The notes under the pieces were generated by a model. That model worked only from the letters and a program-made list of their open reading frames with translations, did no database searches and was not told where the DNA came from. Position numbers and translations under genes: made by a program. Below are positions 5,685 to 42,247 of a DNA stretch of 43,302 nucleotides, piece by piece. The stretch comes from a virus, in IMG/VR virus record IMGVR_UViG_3300048589_000082, positions 1 through 43,302 of that record; one strand, written 5' to 3'. Position 1 is the stretch's first letter. Each line of letters starts with the position of its first letter.

Positions 5685-6359
5685 TCAATAGGGAATTTCG
5701 TCCCCGCCAAGATCGGCGGGGGTCAATTCTTCCTTGCGAGCATTCTTGGCCGCAATAACAGCAGGTATGGCTTGCACGGAGCGAGGCAGGTCTTTCCAGA
5801 TCGCGGCGAGGGCTTCCAGTGTCCCGGCTGCGGCGAGGCTGTCGCGCGCCACCTGTTCCGGGCTTGGTTCGTCGCCGCCGGGTTCGTCGCCGTGAAGGTC
5901 GCCCTTGTGCCACAGGTCAAGTGCCGCGCCGAAGCGCATGGCTGCGTTGCGGAGCGCGTCGCCGATGGTTTCCTTGATGGCATCGCCGCCGCGCTTGCCG
6001 TCCGGGTGGCCGTATCCAAGGCGCGTCACTCCGCAGACAGTCAGCTTTATCCACATTCCGCCGTTCTCGTCCATAAGCGGCGTCCCGTTCGGCCCATAGG
6101 CGACCGGCTCCCATCCCCAATTCGGGTCACAGTCCAGAAGCCGATCGGTCAATGCGGCGTGGCCGACGTAATCCAGGTGCACCACGTCAGGGTGATGCCA
6201 CGTCCCGCATATCTTGCAGCGGATGCCGGCCTTGAAGTTGGCTCGCACCGCTTCCGTCTGCACCTTTGTGGGCTTCGGAAGTTTGGAAATGAGGTTTGCC
6301 GGGAATGGCTCACGCAAGAGGGCAAGCCCGGTTTTCGGCTGCTTCGTCGGGGCGTTCAT
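5685..6359 (-). CDS. Rad52-like single-strand annealing protein
   Basis: The protein has 224 residues, starting at the ATG at 6359 that overlaps the upstream stop. The core holds WEPVAYGPNGTPLMDENGGMW, a VTRLGYGHPDGKRGGDAIKE loop and GDALRNAAMRFG, the signature of the Rad52/22 (Sak-type) annealers. A CxxC (KICGTW) precedes the core. The C-terminus ends in an acidic GGDEIPY tip very like the SSB tip (LDDEIPF at 11866), suggesting both tips are read by a common partner (inference). It anneals complementary single strands during phage recombination and perhaps concatemer formation. Confidence 0.88.
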   Translation of the reverse strand: MNAPTKQPKTGLALLREPFPANLISKLPKPTKVQTEAVRANFKAGIRCKICGTWHHPDVVHLDYVGHAALTDRLLDCDPNWGWEPVAYGPNGTPLMDENGGMWIKLTVCGVTRLGYGHPDGKRGGDAIKETIGDALRNAAMRFGAALDLWHKGDLHGDEPGGDEPSPEQVARDSLAAAGTLEALAAIWKDLPRSVQAIPAVIAAKNARKEELTPADLGGDEIPY

Positions 6360-7696: not shown

Positions 7697-8632
7697 TCAC
7701 GCCTCCACCAGCTTGCCGCCTTCGCAGCGATACCAGACGCCGGCCTTGATGCCGCCGACGCCCGTTGTTCCGCAGGCGATGGATTTTCGGGTGTATTTTC
7801 CGTCGTCCCAAACGAGTTCGCGGGCAAACAGGTCAACGCCGTCAATCTCGCCACGAACGCGCCCATAAAACCCCGTCGCCATGGCACATGACGATTCTCC
7901 CGATGCGGTAGCCGCGCCATGAAGGCCCGATGCGGTAGCCGCGCCCCGATCACCAGATGCGGTAGCCGCGCCCTGATAGCCCGATGCGGTAGCCGCGCCC
8001 TGAAGGCCCGATGCGGTCGCCGCGCCATGATAGCCCGATGCGGTAGCCGCGCCCCAATCGCCAGATGCGGTAGCCGCGCCCAAATCGCCAGATGCGGTAG
8101 CCGCGCCCAAATCGCCAGATGCGGTAGCCGCGCCATGAAGGCCCGATGCGGTCGCCGCGCCCTGATAGCCCGATGCGGTAGCCGCGCCCCAATCGCCCGA
8201 TGCGGTAGCCGCGCCCTGATAGCCCGATGCGGTAGCCGCGCCCTGAAGGCCCGATGCGGTAGCCGCGCCCTGATAGCCCGATGCGGTTAAACCCTCTTGA
8301 CAAGAGCGATCAATCACCCACTTGACCGCTTCCGCCACCAGATCGGAAAGGCCGATCTCCCGCGTGACTGTCAGGGTTTCAGCGGCGATCTTGTCGCCTT
8401 CGCGCATCGTTTTGCCGGCAACCTCAACCACGCAGAATCTTGATCTGGCCGGCGGGTAATAGCCGAATACGGAAAGTGGATGCTGATCCTCGGGGATGGC
8501 GTGAAATCCGTTCCCACACAGGATGATCTCTCCATCGGCGTGGTAGGTCTTGCCAACCTCAAACTGAAACCCGCGACATTGCAGATTTGCATCAAAGCCC
8601 TTGATCGCGCGAATTTTGGTTTCTGCGGTCAT
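7697..8632 (-). CDS. DUF7666-like protein with nonapeptide repeat
   Basis: The protein has 311 residues. The N-terminal 100 residues (IKGFDANLQCRGFQFEVGKTY, then CGNGFHAI and VVEV) match a small domain of phage proteins now called DUF7666. Residues 117-242 are 14 copies of a nine-residue unit ASGxxGAAT, where xx is YQ, LQ, DW, DL, LH, YH or DR. Regular Ala/Gly/Thr/Ser spacing suggests a flat beta-solenoid (inference). A short C-terminal domain (ARELVWDDGKYTRKSIACGTT) follows. The start at 8632 is preferred because it precedes the conserved domain closely. Role unknown. Confidence 0.8.
   Translation of the reverse strand: MTAETKIRAIKGFDANLQCRGFQFEVGKTYHADGEIILCGNGFHAIPEDQHPLSVFGYYPPARSRFCVVEVAGKTMREGDKIAAETLTVTREIGLSDLVAEAVKWVIDRSCQEGLTASGYQGAATASGLQGAATASGYQGAATASGDWGAATASGYQGAATASGLHGAATASGDLGAATASGDLGAATASGDWGAATASGYHGAATASGLQGAATASGYQGAATASGDRGAATASGLHGAATASGESSCAMATGFYGRVRGEIDGVDLFARELVWDDGKYTRKSIACGTTGVGGIKAGVWYRCEGGKLVEA
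7908..8285. repeat. 27-bp tandem repeat, 14 copies
   Basis: Direct tandem repeats of 27 bases built around gatgcggtagccgcgcc encode the nonapeptides of the protein at 7697-8632. The units differ mainly at the two variable codons, so copy number and content can shift by slippage or unequal recombination without breaking the frame. Confidence 0.9.
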
Positions 8633-8642
8633 GTCAGCGCTC

Positions 8643-9644
8643 CTAGTAGGCTTCCGCTTCATCGCGGGTGATGAAAAAATGAATCCCGCCCGCGCACTCC
8701 TCCCACCTGTCCTCCCACCACTCGTGACAGGTGACGCGCTGACCGACGCGATATTTCGTCATGCCGTCGTGCCTGGATATCCCGGCTTCGGCGCCGATGA
8801 CCTCGGCCACGTCGGCGTATTCGGCGCGACACTTGCGGCCAGTGGCGTTGCTGCGACGCGCTTCTGCGGGAATGATCAGCTTGACGATTACGTTGTCACG
8901 GCACTTTTTCCAGCCGACGATCTGCCCCTCTGGAACGATCACGGTTTGCGCGCTGGCGAAGGCTGGGATGTCTTTGGCCCCGCTCAGGTTGGCCTCGCTC
9001 AGGTCGGCCCCGCGCAGGATGGCCACGCTCAGGTTGGCCTCGCTCAGGTCGGCCCCGCGCAGGATGGCCCCGCGCAGGTCGGCCCCGCTCAGGTTGGCCC
9101 CGCTCAGGTTGGCATCGCTCAGGTTGGCCCCGCTCAGGTCGGCCCCGCGCAGGATGGCCCCGCTCAGGTCGGCCCCGCGCAGGATGGCCCCGCGCAGGTC
9201 GGCCTCGCTCAGGTCGGCCCCGCGCAGGTCGGCCTCGCTCAGGTCGGCCTCGCTCAGGTCGGCCCCGCTCAGGTTGGCCACGCTCAGGTTGGCCCCGCTC
9301 AGGTCGGCCCCGCTCAGGTCGGCCTCGCGCAGGTCGGCCCCGCGCAGGATGGCCTCGCTCAGGTTGGCCTCGCTCAGGTCGGCCCCGCGCAGGATGGCCC
9401 CGCGCAGGATGGCCCCGCGCAGGATGGCCACGCTCAGGTTGGCCTCGCTCAGGTCGGCCCCGCGCAGGATGGCCACGCTCAGGTTGGCCTCGCTCAGGTC
9501 GGCCCCGCGCAGGATGGCCCCCGTCATGGCCGCCCATATCACGGCCGAGCCGATCTTGACCGACGCGGGCGCATCCTCTGCGCAGGCGATTTCTGCGGTG
9601 AACTGCACGGCGCCCGTGTAGCGGTTGCGAATGTCGAATTGCAT
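8643..9644 (-). CDS. Pentapeptide-repeat protein
   Basis: The protein has 333 residues. It starts at the ATG at 9644, with GGAGG six bases upstream and a good promoter beyond it. Residues 40-223 hold about 36 pentapeptides of the A(D/N/I)L(S/R)(G/E/V) type, which fold as a right-handed quadrilateral beta-helix (known of the family). The roughly 110-residue C-terminal part with a [17 protein letters not shown] segment resembles DUF5758 found on other phage pentapeptide proteins. Some pentapeptide proteins mimic DNA and bind gyrase, but that is not shown here. As the first gene from the leftward promoter it would be made at once after infection. Confidence 0.88.
8976..9527. repeat. 15-bp tandem repeat encoding pentapeptides
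   Basis: About 36 units of 15 bases (caggtcggcctcgct type) encode the pentapeptide helix. High base identity among units suggests recent expansion. Confidence 0.9.
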
Positions 9645-9809: not shown

Positions 9810-9838
9810 TTGACACGGCGGGTGCCGATTGGCACAAT
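9810..9838 (+). promoter_or_regulatory. Rightward early promoter, likely leaderless start
   Basis: TTGACA (9810-9815) and CACAAT (9833-9838) are 17 bases apart. The start of transcription is expected at about 9844-9846, which is the ATG of the regulator gene. This promoter should drive the rightward early operon. Confidence 0.7.
9823..9834. promoter_or_regulatory. Operator O3
   Basis: TGCCGATTGGCA, within a perfect-armed GTGCC-GATT-GGCAC, overlaps the spacer and -10 of the rightward promoter. A further half site, TTGGCACTT, is at 9804-9812. Confidence 0.7.
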
Positions 9839-9843
9839 GAGGC

Positions 9844-10050
9844 ATGGGGAACGCACACGACTTCTTCGCCCGCGTCGAGCGCTTCTGCGCAGATCAAGGG
9901 ATTTCACCGGCCACCCTCTGTGGGCGGGCTACGGGAAACGCGCGGCTTTTCGGGCGCATGAAGCGCCGCGCCGCACAACTTCAGCAGGACATGGAGAGGA
10001 TAGATCGGTGCATGGCATCAGCCTCCGATGGTGGCGCAGATGCCCGGTAA
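9844..10050 (+). CDS. Cro-like helix-turn-helix regulator
   Basis: The protein has 68 residues. The order HDFFARVERFCADQGISPATLCGRATG, then RMKRRAAQLQQDMERI and RCMA, follows a known pattern of small phage and alphaproteobacterial HTH proteins of the type ...RVERFC...ISxxxLGRxAxxD...L..G....V..RV..FM. The helix-turn-helix is about residues 20-42. No ribosome site is visible and the promoter places the start of the transcript on the ATG, so a leaderless mRNA is likely. It is the natural candidate to bind O1-O3 and switch the two early promoters. Confidence 0.75.
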   Translation: MGNAHDFFARVERFCADQGISPATLCGRATGNARLFGRMKRRAAQLQQDMERIDRCMASASDGGADAR

Positions 10051-10162
10051 ATTTCTTGCCCGTGCACAATCATGCGCCTTTGCGGCGATTGTTGCAAGTA
10101 TGGTTTTTGATACCGCGCGCGCCGATGAAATCTTCGAGGCTTCGGAGGTTCCGCTTGGATAA
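10040..10162 (+). CDS. 40-residue peptide with signal sequence
   Basis: The ATG at 10040 overlaps the end of the regulator gene by 11 bases, and the frame closes just before the methyltransferase. Residues 1-28 look like a signal peptide (basic start, hydrophobic FAAIVASMVF, ARA-DE cleavage), leaving a mature acidic peptide of about 12 residues. If real it would be an exported micropeptide. It may instead be a chance frame. Confidence 0.4.
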   Translation: MPGKFLARAQSCAFAAIVASMVFDTARADEIFEASEVPLG

Positions 10163-10850
10163 GTTGCGCGTCCTTGACCTTTTCAGCGGGATTGGCGGGT
10201 TTTCTCTCGGCCTCGAAAGAACCGGCGGCTTCGAGACCGTCGCCTTCTGCGAGATTGAGGAGTGTCCCCGCCGCGTGTTGTCAAAACACTGGCCGGGGGT
10301 TCCGATTTACCATGACGTGCGAGAACTCACAAAAGACGTTCTGGACCGAGGCGGAATTGCCGTTGATGTCATCACCGGGGGGTTCCCGTGCCAGAGATTC
10401 AGCAGCGCGGCTAGAGGAAGAAACAATGCGCCCGACCTATGGCCGGAAATGGCGCGTTTGGTATCTGAAATCAAACCGAGATACATCATTGCCGAAAACG
10501 TCAAACGCGATCCTATTGAGAGAGCCGCCGCTCATGCGACCAGCATGGGGATGCAGTGTGACGTGGTATGTATACCTGCGGATGAAGTCGGGGCTGACAC
10601 TGAGCGAGTGCGTTGGTGGGCGATTGCACACCCCCACGACGAAGGCAAATTTCCGCGCGCCCTCGATGCAGAAGTGGCCAAGCTGCCGGCGCTATTCGCT
10701 GGCGTTTGGGGAGCGGAAAATTACCGGGCCGCTATTCGCCTATCTGATGGGATACCCGATAGAATGGGCGCAGTTGCCGCATTCGGAAACGCCGTCGTCC
10801 CGCAAATCCCCGAGCTGATCGGCCGCGCCATCCTGGAGGCAGCCGAATGA
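10155..10850 (+). CDS. C5-cytosine DNA methyltransferase
   Basis: The protein has 231 residues from a TTG at 10155, chosen because GGAGG lies six bases upstream; the longer upstream frame runs through the regulator gene. Motifs in order: I (DLFSGIGG, residues 8-15), IV with catalytic Cys79 (GGFPCQ), VI (ENV, 114-116), VIII (ERVRWW, 150-155), X (GNAV, 211-214). It transfers methyl from S-adenosylmethionine to C5 of cytosine. The target-recognition part between VIII and X is only about 50 residues, so the enzyme is small for the family. No matching restriction enzyme is near, so it is most likely a solitary masking enzyme. Confidence 0.92.
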   Translation: MDKLRVLDLFSGIGGFSLGLERTGGFETVAFCEIEECPRRVLSKHWPGVPIYHDVRELTKDVLDRGGIAVDVITGGFPCQRFSSAARGRNNAPDLWPEMARLVSEIKPRYIIAENVKRDPIERAAAHATSMGMQCDVVCIPADEVGADTERVRWWAIAHPHDEGKFPRALDAEVAKLPALFAGVWGAENYRAAIRLSDGIPDRMGAVAAFGNAVVPQIPELIGRAILEAAE

Positions 10851-11316: not shown

Positions 11317-11507
11317 TCTGCTACAAAGACATGACCTTTTGCAGTTCCGACTGCACCATGACTTCATGCCATCGTTATTGGGATGAAACAAAAAACGCCG
11401 CCGCGCAAAAGTGGTGGGGCAAGCCCGGTGCGCCGGTGGCGTTTTCTGACTTTTCCGATTGTTGTGCCGGATACACAAAGCCGATTGCCGAGGAGGGCAA
11501 GCAATGA
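11313..11507 (+). CDS. Cys-rich small protein, probable zinc binder
   Basis: The protein has 64 residues. MICYKDMTFCSSDC...C near the start supplies four cysteines (3, 10, 14, 19) plus His20, and FSDFSDCC is near residue 50. The ICYKDMTFC start and AFSDFSDCC segment occur in small proteins of many phages from GC-rich Proteobacteria. The order just before SSB suggests a replication accessory role, which is inference. Confidence 0.75.
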   Translation: MICYKDMTFCSSDCTMTSCHRYWDETKNAAAQKWWGKPGAPVAFSDFSDCCAGYTKPIAEEGKQ

Positions 11508-11866
11508 AACAGATCACGATTGCTGGCGGAATTGGCAAGGATGCCGTTATTCGCCGCACAAATGACGGAGACGCGATTACCGGATTCAGCGTCGGCGTAA
11601 ATGACGGATACGGCGACAAGAAACGCACGATCTGGTTTGATTGCTCCATTTTCGGAAAGCGCGGCGAAAAGCTGGCCGATTATCTGACAAAAGGATCGCG
11701 CGTCGTTGTTTCCGGCGAGTTCGGAACGCGGGAATACGAGGGCAAGACCTATTTCACCGTTCGGGTGAATGAAATCGAATTGATGGGGGGCGGCGAGCGG
11801 AAAGAAGAAAGCCGCGTGGATCACAACGCCATCGGGTCAAAGCTGGACGACGAGATTCCATTTTAA
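11504..11866 (+). CDS. ssb: Single-stranded DNA-binding protein
   Basis: The protein has 120 residues from the ATG at 11504, overlapping the upstream stop. The OB-fold region begins ITIAGGIGKDAVIRRTNDGDAITGF and includes FDCSIFGKRGEKLADYLTKGSRVVVSGE, the standard SSB core. The C-terminal tip LDDEIPF is the acidic peptide through which SSB recruits replication and repair proteins. It protects phage single strands and works with the NinB and Rad52-like proteins of the leftward operon. Confidence 0.95.
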   Translation: MKQITIAGGIGKDAVIRRTNDGDAITGFSVGVNDGYGDKKRTIWFDCSIFGKRGEKLADYLTKGSRVVVSGEFGTREYEGKTYFTVRVNEIELMGGGERKEESRVDHNAIGSKLDDEIPF

Positions 11867-11875
11867 GGACAAGAA

Positions 11876-12547
11876 ATGAGCATCGCAATAATGTCATGGG
11901 TGTTTAAGAACGGCCCCCGCGATCCAGGGGAAAGGCTCGTTCTTTTAGCGCTCGCGGATTATTGCGACGACAACGGCGAGTGGGCGCCGAGCATGGCCGG
12001 AATAGCAGAGAAAGCGGGCATGACAGAGCGCGGCGCCAGGGGTGTTGTGCGCCGTCTGGAGGCTGGCGGATGGATCGAGGTCCGCGTTGGAGGAGGGCGC
12101 GGGGGCCGCAGCTTCTACCGCGTTCTGACCGCCGAAAACCCGGAACCAGAAACCCGGAATGAGAAACCCGGAATGAGAAACCCGGAATGTGGCGACACAA
12201 AACCCGGAACGTCACGACACAAAACCCGGAACCGTGCTTCCGCCGAACCATCAGTAACCATCAAGGAACCGTCAAAGAGTAAGGATGCGCGCATCGCGCT
12301 TTGTTCGGTTCTGAGCGAAAAGGTCGCTGACGACTTCATCGCTCACCGCAAGGCGATGCGCAAGCCTCTCACGGCTCGGGCTGCCGAGTTGATCGCCTCC
12401 AGGCTTGCGACATGCAGCGACCCGGACGCGGTGGCGAACCTCTCGATAATGAACGGATGGCAGGGGGTATTTCCAGAGCGCGGGAATGATCCTGTTAAAA
12501 CGTTCTCGCCTAAATTCGACCTGTCCAAATTCGAGGAAACCAGATGA
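11876..12547 (+). CDS. Replication initiator-like HTH protein containing iterons
   Basis: The protein has 223 residues. Residues 20-72 form a winged helix (LVLLALADYC, SMAGIAEKAGMTERGARGVVRRLEAGGWIEV), the HTH_36-type domain of phage replication proteins analogous to lambda O. Residues 87-119 are low-complexity (NPE/KPG/TRN) because they are encoded by six iterons. Residues 130-205 are helical (VADDFIAHRKAMRKPLTARAAELIASRL). As in lambda O, the initiator gene seems to contain the origin it recognises. It lies directly after SSB and before two more replication-type genes. Confidence 0.8.
   Translation: MSIAIMSWVFKNGPRDPGERLVLLALADYCDDNGEWAPSMAGIAEKAGMTERGARGVVRRLEAGGWIEVRVGGGRGGRSFYRVLTAENPEPETRNEKPGMRNPECGDTKPGTSRHKTRNRASAEPSVTIKEPSKSKDARIALCSVLSEKVADDFIAHRKAMRKPLTARAAELIASRLATCSDPDAVANLSIMNGWQGVFPERGNDPVKTFSPKFDLSKFEETR
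12136..12231. repeat. Six iterons, candidate replication origin
   Basis: AAACCCGGAA occurs six times with starts at 12136, 12150, 12164, 12178, 12200 and 12222, that is steps of 14, 14, 14, 22 and 22 bases. The last interval units share a longer 22-base form ending in CGACACA. The array is inside the initiator-like gene, as the lambda origin is inside gene O. Confidence 0.75.
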
Positions 12548-12963
12548 ACCTCAGAACCGCAGAAATCACGCAGGCTTTTACGCGGTGGCTGGATCGTTAT
12601 TCCCCGCCAGCGTCGATCAAAGACAAACCGCAGGCGATGCAGGACGAAGCAGATACGCTTCTTCGCGCTCTAATTCGCAGCGCGCCGGGAACGAATGTTG
12701 GGCAATGGACGGAGCGAGTTTTGGAGCGCGTTTCCGAGAGGATGAAAACGCGGGCATGGCCGACCGTGTTTGAAATTTCCGACGCGGCCAAGAGTTTCAA
12801 CGCCAATGACGGCGCGAGAGAAGATGGTGACAGATCGAAACTGTCGCGCGATCAGTTGTTCCTCCTCAATGACAAGATATTGCCGACCGCCCGCAAATGG
12901 CTCGGCATTCCGGGATTGAAAGAGCATGGGGAAAAGACGCTGGCACATTGGGGGGAGAAATGA
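12544..12963 (+). CDS. Hypothetical replication accessory protein
   Basis: The protein has 139 residues, coupled to the initiator-like gene by ATGA. It is mostly helical, with TRWLDRYSPP near the start and TARKWLGIPGLKEHGEKTLAHW at the end. The position directly after an O-like initiator is where lambda-type phages place a helicase loader, but there is no ATPase motif and the protein is too short for one. A DnaT- or P-like adaptor is possible; this is inference. Confidence 0.7.
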   Translation: MNLRTAEITQAFTRWLDRYSPPASIKDKPQAMQDEADTLLRALIRSAPGTNVGQWTERVLERVSERMKTRAWPTVFEISDAAKSFNANDGAREDGDRSKLSRDQLFLLNDKILPTARKWLGIPGLKEHGEKTLAHWGEK

Positions 12964-13259
12964 CACACCTGACGGAATGCGATGTTTCGCGGGCGCAGGA
13001 AATCTTTGCGATGGTTCCGTGTCGCAAGGAATTGCGGATATTGGAAATCGCGCAAGAAGTGGCAGACGCGACTGGGATTCCCGTCAATCTCATTCTCGGG
13101 AATAGCCGTTTGCCGCATATAGCCCACGCCCGCCAGTTGGCCTATTTCATTGCCTTGAGAAATGATTTCTCGACAGTCGAGATTGGCAGGGCATTCAACA
13201 AGGATCACACGTCAGTAATGCACGGCATTCGCGCAGAATCCATTCGGAGGGGCCAATAA
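12960..13259 (+). CDS. Stand-alone DnaA domain IV-like DNA-binding protein
   Basis: The protein has 99 residues from the ATG at 12960, overlapping the previous stop. Residues 26-90 match the DnaA C-terminal domain: ILEIAQEVADATGI, RQLAYFIALRNDFSTVEIGRAF, then the signature KDHTSVMHG (81-89; DHTTVLHA in DnaA), which contacts the DnaA box. No ATPase domain is present. It could bind DnaA boxes in the phage or host origin, to recruit or to block DnaA. One perfect TTATCCACA is at 6047-6055, but no cluster was seen. Confidence 0.85.
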   Translation: MTHLTECDVSRAQEIFAMVPCRKELRILEIAQEVADATGIPVNLILGNSRLPHIAHARQLAYFIALRNDFSTVEIGRAFNKDHTSVMHGIRAESIRRGQ

Positions 13260-13510
13260 TGACACCTGAACAAAGACTATGGCAGGCTGTATTGGGGCAG
13301 GCAATCAGCGACGCCATGATGGAAGACCCGCAAACGCTGGAAAGCATGATGGACAAGAAATCCGCGCGATTCTGGTTTGACTTCGCGGATAGGAATTTCC
13401 GGTGGGTATGCGAAATGGCAGGGATGAATCCCGATGCAGTAAGCGAGGCGTGGCGGGACGGCAGGGTAAGCCGCGCTGGCGAACTGCGGCAACGGGTGTT
13501 GCACAAATGA
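13259..13510 (+). CDS. Hypothetical protein before the first methyltransferase
   Basis: The protein has 83 residues, starting one base into the previous stop. WFDFADRNFRWVCEMAGMNPDAVSEAWRDGRV is a conserved-looking segment seen in phage early proteins of unknown function. It is helical and possibly DNA-binding. Its stop overlaps the ATG of the methyltransferase. Confidence 0.75.
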   Translation: MTPEQRLWQAVLGQAISDAMMEDPQTLESMMDKKSARFWFDFADRNFRWVCEMAGMNPDAVSEAWRDGRVSRAGELRQRVLHK

Positions 13511-14208
13511 GGGAGGAACGCATCGGCGGGCAGCGGCTGATTTTGGGCGATTGCCTGGAGGTCATGCCGACGCTCGGTCGGGTGGACGCTGTGGTGACTG
13601 ATCCGCCGTATGGGATTGGCGTTGACCGATCTATGGCCGCAAATAGCGGGACGCAGTATGGCAAGGCTGCCGCCGCCAAGGGGCATTACAAGGCGCAAGG
13701 CTGGGATGACAGGCCTATCGGCGAAGAGCATGTGAACGCTATCACCGGCGCAGCTAATCACCAGATAATCTTCGGCGGGAATTACTTTGCGCTGCCCCCC
13801 GCGCGCTGCTGGCTCGTCTGGGACAAGGAAAACGGCAGCAATGAGTTTGCAGACTGTGAACTGGCGTGGACCAACCTAGACAAGCCTGTGCGGCTCTTGC
13901 GGTGGATGTGGAACGGGATGCTGCGTAAGGGGCAAGAAGCGCGGCACGGCCACCCCACCCAAAAGCCCGTCGCTCTCATGGAATGGTGCCTAGGCTTCCT
14001 GCCCGACGCCAAGACCATCCTCGACCCCTTCATGGGCAGCGGCACCACCCTAGTCGCTTGCCAGAAGATGGGCCGCGCAGGAACGGGAATCGAACTGGAC
14101 CCGGATTACTTCGAGATCGCCTGCAAGCGCGTTGATGAGGCGACACGCCAGCCTGACCTGTTCATCGAGCCGACGCCAAAGCCAATCCAGGAGGGATTTG
14201 ACCTGTGA
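13507..14208 (+). CDS. DPPY DNA methyltransferase, copy 1
   Basis: The protein has 233 residues. DPPY (motif IV, residues 32-35) precedes HPTQKP (149-154) and DPFMGSGTT (motif I, 173-181), the order of beta-class amino-methyltransferases such as HinfI and CcrM. DPPY favours N6-adenine (known of the family). It transfers methyl from S-adenosylmethionine. The first 38 residues and the region after HPTQKP are shared with copies 2 and 3, while residues 39-148, the expected target-recognition part, differ. No restriction enzyme is next to it. Confidence 0.92.
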   Translation: MREERIGGQRLILGDCLEVMPTLGRVDAVVTDPPYGIGVDRSMAANSGTQYGKAAAAKGHYKAQGWDDRPIGEEHVNAITGAANHQIIFGGNYFALPPARCWLVWDKENGSNEFADCELAWTNLDKPVRLLRWMWNGMLRKGQEARHGHPTQKPVALMEWCLGFLPDAKTILDPFMGSGTTLVACQKMGRAGTGIELDPDYFEIACKRVDEATRQPDLFIEPTPKPIQEGFDL

Positions 14209-15071
14209 TCACCCTATCCGCCGCAGAACGCGCCCGCATGGCAGAGCAATACGGTTGCATTGTCCCCGAGGGGATCGAGGTCAAGCAAATCCCTCGCGGT
14301 GTATCTGGCGAGCCACTGCCGTATTGGGATGGCAAGCAACTCACCGATGGTTTGACCCGCGCCGAATCCGCGAAGCGCCACAAGCGCCGCGTGTGGGCGG
14401 GGATTCGCCGGGTTGACCCTGAGGTAGCGGCTCGGCGGGCGCGGGTGATGAATCTGCACTCTCAGGGCCTCTCGACGCGGCAAATTTGCGAAGCCGTGAA
14501 TCTCTCGGAATGCACGATCTACCACTATTACCGAGACCTCGGGTTGAAAGCGAATATGCCGAAGCGCGGTCCCTCCCCGGAGGAATTGGAGCGCGAGATT
14601 TTGTTGCGGCGCATTTCGGAATTGGCGGTGCAGGGAAAGAACGCCAGAGAAATTGCGGAAACTCTCGGCCGCAAGATTAAACAGATTTCCGGGTTTGCCG
14701 CGCACCATAAAATTGCCATAGCACCGCCTCCTGAATATACTAAGACAGGAAAGCTGAAAGGCAGAAGCCTAGCCTACGCCCTAAAACGCGACGGATTGAG
14801 GAAAAAAGCACTGGAAGCGATCATCCCTCTTTACCTGCAACGCAAGACGCGCGAGGAAATCGCGGCAATTACCGGCTACAATATCGGATATGTCGGGGAG
14901 ATCATCGGGGCATCCGGGGAGGTCGGACTCCATCGGAGAGACGTGGAGGACAAATACCGCCGCATCCTCGCGGAATTGGCAAATGGCAGGAGTTACAGGG
15001 AGGTGTGCAAGATTGTCGGGTGCGACAAGAAAACCGTATGGCGCGCTGTGAAGTGGCGCGAGGGACAGTGA
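14205..15071 (+). CDS. Protein with several helix-turn-helix units
   Basis: The protein has 288 residues. At least four HTH-like units can be read: residues 85-110 (LSTRQICEAVNLSECTIYHY), about 140-160 (GKNAREIAETLGRKIKQI), about 212-232 (KTREEIAAITGYNIGYVGEI) and 262-284 (RSYREVCKIVGCDKKTVWRAV). The spacing resembles transposase or recombinase DNA-binding halves, but there is no DDE or Ser/Tyr catalytic part. It lies between methyltransferases 1 and 2 and is coupled to copy 1. It may be a transcription factor or origin-bridging protein. Function unknown. Confidence 0.75.
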   Translation: MITLSAAERARMAEQYGCIVPEGIEVKQIPRGVSGEPLPYWDGKQLTDGLTRAESAKRHKRRVWAGIRRVDPEVAARRARVMNLHSQGLSTRQICEAVNLSECTIYHYYRDLGLKANMPKRGPSPEELEREILLRRISELAVQGKNAREIAETLGRKIKQISGFAAHHKIAIAPPPEYTKTGKLKGRSLAYALKRDGLRKKALEAIIPLYLQRKTREEIAAITGYNIGYVGEIIGASGEVGLHRRDVEDKYRRILAELANGRSYREVCKIVGCDKKTVWRAVKWREGQ

Positions 15072-15284
15072 ATGACAACGCCATTCTACAACCAATCTGA
15101 GCGCGAGGCCAATCAGGAGCTTGAAATCCTGAGCCTCCGCGCCCGGCTGGCAGAGTCGCAGAAGCGCGTGGCGGAATTGCAGCGGCTATACGACAATTCG
15201 CAGAACTACATCCAGCGTCTGATGGCGCTGGTAAAGCGGCTGGAGTCACGCCCGGCAGAGCAGCTATTTCGGAGGTTGCAGTGA
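15072..15284 (+). CDS. Short coiled-coil protein
   Basis: The protein has 70 residues starting directly after the previous stop. Residues 10-60 are a clear heptad helix (NQELEILSLRARLAESQKRVA...), ending in RPAEQLFRRLQ. Its stop overlaps the GTG of methyltransferase 2. It may mediate oligomerisation. Function unknown. Confidence 0.7.
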   Translation: MTTPFYNQSEREANQELEILSLRARLAESQKRVAELQRLYDNSQNYIQRLMALVKRLESRPAEQLFRRLQ

Positions 15285-15955
15285 GGGAGGAACGCATCGG
15301 CGGGCAGCGGCTGATCCTCGGGGATTGCCTGGAGGTCATGCCGACTCTCGGCCGGGTGGATGCCGTGGTGACGGACCCGCCGTATGGGATTGGTCGGGAC
15401 GGGCAGAAACAAACCACCGGAGGCAACGGTGGCCGTAAGGCTTACGACTTCAAGGGGTGGGACCAGACAAGACCGCCGCGCGAGGTGTTCGACGCCATAC
15501 GGGCGGTGTCAGACAATCAAGTTATCTGGGGCGGCAACTATTTCGCGGACATGCTTCCAGCATCGGGCGGCTGGCTTGTGTGGGATAAGGGGCAGCGCAT
15601 CAACCAGTCGGACGGCGAACTAGCCTACACGTCAAAGCCCGGCGCGTTGCGCATCTTTGAGCAAAACCGCGTTGCGCTACTCATGGAGGGCGCGGTTCAC
15701 CCAACGCAAAAGCCGCTGTCCGTGATGCGGCGCAGCATCCGTCAATTTCCCGCCGCCAAAACCATCCTCGACCCTTTCATGGGCAGCGGTACAACCCTCG
15801 TCGCCTGCCAGAAGCTCGGCCGCCACGGCATCGGCATCGAGATCGACCCGGACTATTTCGAAATCGCCTGCCGCCGCGTCGATGAAGCCGCGCGGCAACC
15901 GGATTTGTTCATCGCGCCGCAGCCCAAACCGCAGCAAGAGGCTATGGACCTATGA
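15281..15955 (+). CDS. DPPY DNA methyltransferase, copy 2
   Basis: The protein has 224 residues with a GTG start overlapping the previous stop. Motif order is the same as copy 1: DPPY at 32-35, HPTQKP at 140-145, DPFMGSGTT at 164-172. The middle (residues 39-138) is unlike copies 1 and 3 (for example KAYDFKGWDQTRPPREVF). After HPTQKP it has LSVMRRSIRQFP instead of VALMEWCLGFLP, whereas from LGRHGIG to the end it equals copy 3. This patchwork points to gene conversion between copies. Confidence 0.92.
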   Translation: MREERIGGQRLILGDCLEVMPTLGRVDAVVTDPPYGIGRDGQKQTTGGNGGRKAYDFKGWDQTRPPREVFDAIRAVSDNQVIWGGNYFADMLPASGGWLVWDKGQRINQSDGELAYTSKPGALRIFEQNRVALLMEGAVHPTQKPLSVMRRSIRQFPAAKTILDPFMGSGTTLVACQKLGRHGIGIEIDPDYFEIACRRVDEAARQPDLFIAPQPKPQQEAMDL

Positions 15956-16596
15956 GGGAGGAACGCATCGGCGGGCAACGCCTGATCTTGGGGGATTGCC
16001 TTGAGGTTATGCAGACTCTCGGCCGGGTGGATGCGGTCGTGACGGACCCGCCGTATGGGATTGGTATTGCAAATAACCCTGTCAGGCAGAAACATGACCG
16101 TAAGAATTGGGACTCATCTCCTATCGGCGCGGAACACTTGCGGGCAATACTTTCCGGCTCGGTTGAGCAAATCATATGGGGCGGAAACTACTTCAATCTT
16201 CCGCCGTCTCGCGGGTTCTTGGTTTGGGACAAGAAGCAGCCTGAGAATTTTAGTCTTGCCATGTGCGAGCAGGCGTGGTGGTCGCGAGATACCAACGCTA
16301 AGGTCTTTTCCAAGAGTGTTCTTGGTTATGATAAGAGCCACCCAACCCAAAAGCCCGTAGCCCTCATGGAGTGGTGCCTCGGCTTTTTACCCGACGCCAG
16401 CACCATCCTCGACCCATTCATGGGCTCTGGCACCACGCTCGTTGCCTGTCAGAAACTCGGCCGCCATGGAATCGGCATCGAGATCGACCCGGACTATTTC
16501 GAGATAGCGTGCCGGCGTGTCGATGAAGCCGCGCGGCAGCCGGATTTGTTCATTGCGCCGCAGCCCAAACCGCAGCAAGAGGCGATGGACCTATGA
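15952..16596 (+). CDS. DPPY DNA methyltransferase, copy 3
   Basis: The protein has 214 residues; its ATG overlaps the stop of copy 2. DPPY is at 32-35, HPTQKP at 130-135, DPFMGSGTT at 154-162. The N-terminal 38 residues equal copy 2 except Gln21 for Pro. The middle (39-128, with QKHDRKNWDSSPIGAEHL) is its own, only distantly like copy 1. It is the shortest of the three. Different target sites for the three enzymes are inferred from the differing middle parts. Confidence 0.92.
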   Translation: MREERIGGQRLILGDCLEVMQTLGRVDAVVTDPPYGIGIANNPVRQKHDRKNWDSSPIGAEHLRAILSGSVEQIIWGGNYFNLPPSRGFLVWDKKQPENFSLAMCEQAWWSRDTNAKVFSKSVLGYDKSHPTQKPVALMEWCLGFLPDASTILDPFMGSGTTLVACQKLGRHGIGIEIDPDYFEIACRRVDEAARQPDLFIAPQPKPQQEAMDL

Positions 16597-17191: not shown

Positions 17192-17267
17192 TGTCGGGGT
17201 AGAGAAGCAGTAAACTCACTGGCCTCATAAGCCGGAGACGCGGGTGCAAATCCCGCCCCCGCAACCA
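17192..17267 (+). tRNA. tRNA-Met(CAU)
   Basis: The 76-nt sequence folds as a cloverleaf: acceptor TGTCGGG with CCCCGCA (one C-C mismatch, one G-U), D-stem GAG/CTC, anticodon stem CTGGC/GCCGG around loop CTCATAA (CAU), T-stem GCGGG/CCCGC with loop TGCAAAT, and encoded CCA. It could be initiator, elongator or a CAU tRNA modified to read AUA; the sequence alone does not settle which. Confidence 0.85.
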
Positions 17268-17335
17268 GGTAAGGCGTCACCCGAGCGACGGCGGGCCGCT
17301 GTAGGGCTAGATACCCCACTCCGTTGCAACAGATT

Positions 17336-17410
17336 GCGGGCGCGCGCTCGGGTAGCGTCCTTGGCCTTCCAAGCCATAGAGCGAGGGTTCGAGTCCCTCC
17401 GTCCGCTCCA
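17336..17410 (+). tRNA. tRNA-Gly(UCC)
   Basis: The 75-nt gene has acceptor GCGGGCG with CGTCCGC (one G-U), a D-loop TCGGGTA with the conserved GG, anticodon loop CTTCCAA (UCC), T-arm GAGGG-TTCGAGT-CCCTC and encoded CCA. The outermost anticodon-stem pair is a mismatch. Confidence 0.85.
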
Positions 17411-17475
17411 TAGCCTCGCTGGGCCTGCGGTATGAGCCACGAGGATCGACTGTCAGGTGCCGCAGGCCAACTGAA

Positions 17476-17549
17476 TGCCGTTTGGTGTAATGGAAGCACG
17501 GCGGTCTCCAAAACCGCAGGAAGGGGTTCGATTCCCCTAGCGGATGCCA
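17476..17549 (+). tRNA. tRNA-Trp(CCA) with weak acceptor end
   Basis: The 74-nt gene has an ideal D-arm (GTGT...GCAC), anticodon stem GCGGT/ACCGC around CTCCAAA (CCA), T-arm AGGGG-TTCGATT-CCCCT, discriminator G and encoded CCA. The acceptor TGCCGTT/AGCGGAT pairs at only five positions; the two outer pairs (U1-U72, G2-A71) do not form. It may need editing or may be decaying. Confidence 0.8.
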
Positions 17550-42107: not shown

Positions 42108-42241
42108 AACTCGCCACGTTTACCACATGCGACGGCCGCACGATGCTTCGGTGCTATACGCAGGGACAACTTGTGTGGGAGAAGGAATTGACGCGCCACG
42201 AAATAGCGCGCCTGATCCGTGAAATGGCCGCAAGCCTCTAG
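42104..42241 (+). CDS. Small hypothetical protein, end of late operon
   Basis: The protein has 45 residues with a GTG start overlapping the phosphoesterase stop (GTGA). It begins MKLATFTTCDGRTMLRC and ends in a basic helix (RHEIARLIREMAASL). Most of it lies in the 127-bp repeat. Function unknown. Confidence 0.7.
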   Translation: MKLATFTTCDGRTMLRCYTQGQLVWEKELTRHEIARLIREMAASL

Positions 42242-42247
42242 GCTTGA
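42121..42247. repeat. 127-bp exact direct repeat, right copy
   Basis: Identical to bases 1-127. Upstream of it the late operon is continuous; downstream the sequence differs from that after the left copy. It is the point where the circular map probably closes. Confidence 0.95.
42231..42246. terminator. Short hairpin, right copy
   Basis: The same CAAGCC-TCTA-GGCTTG hairpin as at 111-126, between the end of the rightward late operon and a leftward operon. No T-run follows, so function is uncertain. Confidence 0.35.

Follow-up and report, generated by a model that had tools for sequence, protein, structure and literature searches.

A probable lambda-type replication origin inside an O-like initiator gene of IMG/VR virus IMGVR_UViG_3300048589_000082

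The 43,302-nucleotide DNA of IMG/VR virus record IMGVR_UViG_3300048589_000082 (positions 1 to 43,302, referred to as the window) carries an array of short direct repeats, or iterons, within an open reading frame (ORF) for an O-like replication initiator. Most probably (about 0.9 by our estimate), the array provides the iterons of a replication origin of the lambda type that is embedded in the gene for its own initiator. It consists of six exact copies of AAACCCGGAA with start-to-start spacings of 14, 14, 14, 22 and 22 bp, and is followed by a repeated motif, AACCRTCA, that is proposed here as the unwinding element (Table 1).

Iterons within the initiator gene

The abundance of AAACCCGGAA in the window is well above expectation: 14 sites with no more than one mismatch were found, compared with 3.06 expected (standard deviation 1.77), and none of 100 dinucleotide shuffles reached 14. 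Outside the array, the sole further exact copy in the window lies at 14687-14696 on the minus strand and is not in the initiator gene. The six copies of the array fall in reading frames 2, 1, 0, 2, 0 and 1 of the ORF, i.e. two per frame. Moreover, the ORF contains 77 pairs of repeated 8-mers, compared with 4.5 (standard deviation 2.8) when synonymous codons were shuffled with the protein held fixed, and 0 of 50 such shuffles reached 77. The mixed frames and the synonymous shuffles together rule out a repeat at the protein level. A preliminary description of this DNA had reported the six copies and their spacings within an O-like winged-helix initiator gene, and had judged the phasing too regular for protein-level selection alone; both the array and this judgement were borne out by the counts above, and the assignment of the protein holds on the profile matches that follow.

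The initiator protein matches PHROG phrog_678 ("replication initiation O-like") over residues 1-204 with E=2.2e-26, and is a member of that group. A match to Pfam HTH_36 (E=2.4e-5) scored 24.5 bits, slightly under the gathering cut-off of 25. No match to Pfam PF04492 (Phage_rep_O) was found up to an E value of 0.01, and membership of the lambda O family was rejected on this basis. The protein is therefore outside the Phage_rep_O family by Pfam and inside an O-like PHROG. An AlphaFold2 model built from 39 aligned sequences comprises a winged helix-turn-helix (wHTH) domain at approximately residues 3-83, a linker at ∼85-134 and a helical C-terminal domain at ∼135-193, with a predicted local distance difference test (pLDDT) score of >90 across most of the two domains and 45-60 across most of the linker. 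Given that the iterons encode approximately residues 87-119 and the AACCRTCA element approximately residues 123-133, the DNA signals are packed into codons of the predicted disordered linker. A fold search of the PDB with this protein returned generic winged-helix regulators only, none with E <0.001, and no specific initiator match.

The closest view of selection on the array is given by EBPR podovirus 2 (JF412295). Its gp8, annotated as a hypothetical protein, shares with the window protein the wHTH type, the six iterons with their spacings and the AACCRTCA element, whereas its C-terminal half is an unrelated domain. Between the two genes, identical bases amount to 60 of 60 in the iterons, 187 of 258 in the wHTH coding region and 20 of 36 in the spacers; Fisher tests of the iterons against the wHTH region, the spacers and the wHTH third positions gave P values of 6e-8, 1e-8 and 3e-6, respectively. 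All 20 iteron third positions for which synonymous alternatives exist are kept in gp8, compared with 27 of 60 in conserved wHTH codons (P=3e-6), and the AACCRTCA block is identical at 31 of 32 bases. Given that iteron bases and synonymous third positions are fully kept while their surroundings diverge, these data show selection on the DNA. The C-terminal module was swapped just downstream of the origin between these two viruses.

A survey was made of 120 dereplicated genes from viral contigs, found by their N- or C-terminal domain, plus a few from other searches; an array was called when the best array in a gene exceeded 20 synonymous shuffles. By this measure, 83 of the 120 genes contain a linker array, which is mixed-frame in 75 of the 83. 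Spacings in the surveyed genes peak at 22 (81 cases) and 17 (55 cases), the autocorrelation peaks at lag 22 (z=5.7), and the typical plan is one of several repeats 14-18 bp apart with the last two ∼22 bp apart. A search of genome contigs, as opposed to the viral-contig set, yielded only four relatives.

Iteron similarity, determined by matrix comparison in either orientation for 127 genes, was related to wHTH identity (partial Spearman 0.37; 0 of 500 permutations) and hardly to C-terminal identity (0.06; 6 of 500 permutations). It was 0.65 for pairs with similar wHTH domains and dissimilar C termini, and 0.38 for the reverse pairs. Binding of the array by the protein would be expected to produce such covariation of iteron sequence with the wHTH domain. 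The preliminary description had likened the placement of the array to that in lambda and had named relatives that keep the amino acids while losing the repeats as evidence to the contrary. No such case was seen among the relatives compared, in which base repeats, frames and spacing are kept while spacers and the C terminus vary, and its reading gains support from these base repeats and their recurrence through the family.

The AACCRTCA element and the lambda layout

The AACCRTCA motif was discovered by k-mer enrichment relative to synonymous shuffles. Two or more copies of ACCRTCA were present in 34 of 74 genes, compared with 3.0 expected; the copies are mostly 10-12 bp apart, are distributed 56/31/16 over the frames and lie 20-60 nucleotides past the start of the last iteron. 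When viral contigs were scanned at the DNA level only, with three AACCRTCA copies separated by gaps of 1-4 nucleotides as the query, at least 87 of the 120 stretches listed fell within wHTH initiator ORFs in the sense orientation and 0 in the antisense orientation; the remaining listed stretches were mostly of low complexity or had an ORF running off the stretch edge. Across the whole collection, a control scan with the complement of the motif, not reversed, gave 41 stretches, 0 of them in initiators. Among the matches listed were 73 dereplicated initiators with AACCRTCA, in mixed frames in 65 and with an array directly upstream in 72. Those 72 arrays comprise 39 different iteron 8-mers, have a last spacing of 21-23 in 65 cases, and are followed by the element at a median of 23 nucleotides from the last iteron start.

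Related elements are present in named phages of Bordetella, Sphingopyxis, Arthrobacter (AACCGTCC) and Pseudomonas, and E. coli phage 2H10 carries AACCAGTCA as such an element. AACAAA-like motifs form 11-12-bp repeats in AT-rich relatives, among them L112 and L130. Two further contigs (L226 and L299) contain the AACCRTCA triplet in ORFs with no wHTH profile and no Pfam match in the N-terminal stretch tested; these are possibly other initiator types with the same element.

Nearest-neighbour calculations place the weakest duplex at the AACCRTCA element (t=13.5 relative to synonymous shuffles). Expressed as a percentile of low duplex stability within the gene, the family median is 0.99, and the 36-nucleotide stretch past the last iteron of the window is at 0.986. 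In relatives, single-strand foldback is in excess at the last iteron (t=-6.9), which is often a clear inverted repeat, is less than expected across the element, and is again in excess, to a statistically modest degree, in segments starting 40-60 nucleotides past the last iteron start (t=-4.6 to -3.0).

These features correspond to those of oriLambda in gene O of phage lambda (Escherichia coli), where mid-gene iterons are likewise followed by a melting region and a dyad, with the helicase-loader gene next (PMC7466680, PMC5043065). There, iterons that are inverted repeats are followed by an A+T-rich region of ∼40 bp that opens upon O binding (PMC5043065, PMC7466680). The lambda O sequence also shows a further dyad, GTCAGAG..CTCTGAC. 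The window and its relatives have DNA-conserved intragenic iterons, an easily melted region adjoining them and, at a statistically modest level, a dyad or stem-loop beyond; a lambda-like layout is also visible in named phages of Arthrobacter, Bordetella, Sphingopyxis and Pseudomonas. From this shared layout and the weak duplex, we therefore infer that AACCRTCA is an unwinding element of ordinary base composition, and it may possibly also serve as a recognition site when single-stranded.

The correspondence is one of plan and not of parts. Lambda O has a Phage_rep_O DNA-binding domain, whereas that of the window protein is HTH_36-like; each lambda iteron is an inverted repeat of ∼19 bp, whereas those of the window are direct repeats of 10 bp at start-to-start intervals of 14 or 22 bp, of which only the last has a clear dyad; and the AT-rich melting tract of lambda has as its counterpart a repeated motif that is not AT-rich. 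IMG/VR contig 2522572179_000013 (L011/L103) shares the C-terminal domain type of the window protein and a 22-bp phased array within the gene, whereas its N-terminal domain is PF04492 Phage_rep_O, its iterons are palindromic (TCCCCAAACGGGGA) and a ACAAAAGACAA repeat stands in place of AACCRTCA. Phage_rep_O-type genes, namely that of L103 (L011) at 515-560 and lambda O (L187), contain ACAAAAGA repeats at the place of AACCRTCA. In P1, the lytic origin oriL lies within the gene of the initiator RepL, and synonymous changes in an AT-rich stretch lower the RepL-mediated signal (PMC9948254); RepL is a different initiator, likened here by its published description only and with no iteron array of the window type considered.

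The principle of an origin within its initiator gene is long known. What appears to be undescribed within the open-licence literature is the general AACCRTCA element, together with the rules that spacing and module exchange follow across the family; a search there for the string AACCATCA gave, among the matches listed, one ribosome-binding-site listing.

Proposed mechanism and alternative explanations

In the mechanism proposed, the wHTH domain would bind the iterons, the last as an inverted-repeat site and those before it as single sites in tandem, and assembly on the array would strain and open the AACCRTCA element. One exposed strand would then be held by the initiator or a partner, and the C-terminal domain would bring in the host replicative helicase, either directly or via a loader, perhaps the product of the gene at 12544-12963. 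With the sites inside the gene, the binding domain and its sites would stay together when phages exchange C-terminal modules. A broader proposal, to which we give slightly less than even odds, is that phage initiators of the HTH_36 type share the AACCRTCA triplet as a general, sequence-specific signal for unwinding or helicase loading, constant across iterons, C-terminal domains and hosts. Such a signal would be read, probably single-stranded, by a conserved part of the initiator or by the host replication machinery, in a role akin to the repeats of DNA unwinding elements or the DnaA-trio of bacterial origins.

Several observations weigh against an origin of this kind in the window. The AACCRTCA element there is only 46-48% AT, unlike the AT-rich tract of lambda, and the product of the gene in the lambda P position has no Pfam or PHROGs match. 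No array was detected in some relatives found via the C-terminal domain, and none is visible in Salmonella phage SI5, a named relative. Part of the covariation described above could stem from physical linkage between the array and the wHTH codons; across the family, however, conservation is lower in the spacers between the same iterons (0.42) than in the iterons (0.59). Lastly, cumulative GC skew, which the preliminary description had suggested as a check, has its minimum at 9918, 2.2 kb away from the array. The result is weak and confounded; given that this minimum coincides with a switch in gene orientation, GC skew was not used as proof of an origin.

Three other explanations were considered for the iterons or the AACCRTCA element. 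Expansion of a low-complexity protein linker with no DNA function would fit the predicted disorder of the encoded linker, and repetitive linkers are common. Given that the iterons occupy all three frames and so encode a non-repeating peptide, that the repeats are lost on synonymous randomisation, and that the iterons are identical in EBPR podovirus 2 although the spacers between them diverge, almost no credence can be given to this account. Alternatively, the repeats could be an operator through which the protein represses or tunes transcription of its own operon and does not start replication. A wHTH domain beside repeats is also the pattern of an autoregulator, and DNA-level conservation alone does not discriminate between the two roles. 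An operator is nevertheless considered highly improbable in view of the position of the array in mid-gene and not at a promoter, its coupling to a weak-duplex element and a stem-loop, and a family annotated as replication initiators that adjoins genes for single-strand DNA-binding protein (SSB), helicase loaders or helicases. Operator and origin roles may coexist.

The third explanation places the role of the AACCRTCA element, and perhaps of the array too, in the mRNA, where it could be a signal for translation or antitermination, for instance. The strand orientation of AACCRTCA in the scan described above (at least 87 sense, 0 antisense) is what an RNA element would show as well. By contrast, the short fixed distance past the array (median of 23 nucleotides from the last iteron start), the copy spacing of 10-12 bp, the location among the weakest duplex stretches of the gene and the presence of the lambda melting region at the same place make action in the mRNA unlikely.

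An origin of this type would allow origins to be located from sequence only in many phages and prophages with HTH_36-like initiators, which are often annotated as "helix-turn-helix protein" or "hypothetical", and would provide dozens of natural pairs of DNA-binding domain and likely site, with 39 distinct iteron 8-mers among 72 genes. A further question that it poses is why a short motif beside the iterons is constant while the iterons change.

Neighbouring genes and other features of the window

Table 1. Positions of the proposed origin, the initiator gene and its immediate neighbours in the window
Feature	Position	Strand	Basis or remark
SSB gene, directly upstream of initiator gene	11504..11866	+	Pfam SSB E=3e-19; phrog_44 E=1e-26
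O-like replication initiator gene, 223 amino acids	11876..12547	+	phrog_678 and HTH_36 matches; AlphaFold2 model
Iteron array, six copies of AAACCCGGAA	12136..12231	+	Starts 12136, 12150, 12164, 12178, 12200, 12222
Dyad CGGAA-ccgtgc-TTCCG at last iteron	12227..12242	+	Read from sequence; foldback excess of relatives peaks at last iteron
AACCRTCA element, three copies at 12246, 12256, 12267 (spacing 10 and 11)	12243..12274	+	Proposed unwinding element
Stem-loop potential GAACCG..CAAAG..CTTTG..CGGTTC	12266..12311	+	DNA fold; overlaps last AACCRTCA copy and extends downstream
Gene in lambda P position, start overlaps initiator stop	12544..12963	+	Candidate helicase loader, unproven

For the product of the gene in the P position, no homologs were found in viral contigs, and a single match of 39 residues was found in EBPR podovirus 2. 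In the relative from Bordetella phage PHB09, this position is occupied by a lambda P-like loader (phrog_109 E=2e-28; Pfam Phage_lambda_P E=1.5e-6), and in other relatives by a DnaC-like loader (Ld25A), DnaB (PP9W2) or a primase/helicase (SI5). Two genes past the initiator, at 12960-13259, a 99-residue protein consists only of a DnaA domain IV-like helix-turn-helix (Bac_DnaA_C, E=7e-16); the strict DnaA box TTATCCACA occurs as a single copy in the window, at 6047, far from the array. DNA methyltransferase genes, one C5 and three N4/N6, are located near the origin region (9810-10850 and 13402-16596), and between them a protein of repeated HTH_23-like domains is encoded at 14205-15071.

Elsewhere in the window, two tandem arrays lie in minus-strand ORFs: one at 7899-8287 (27 bp × 14), with tail-fibre and collagen-like PHROG matches, and one at 8974-9521 (15 bp × 36), which matches PHROGs of unknown function. 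Bases 1-127 recur exactly and in the same orientation at 42121-42247, after which the sequences diverge. Assemblers commonly use a k-mer size of 127, and so this may be a circular genome of ∼42,120 bp with, at its end, an alternative branch of 1 kb. Three consecutive tRNA genes (Met, Gly and Trp) are present at 17192-17549.
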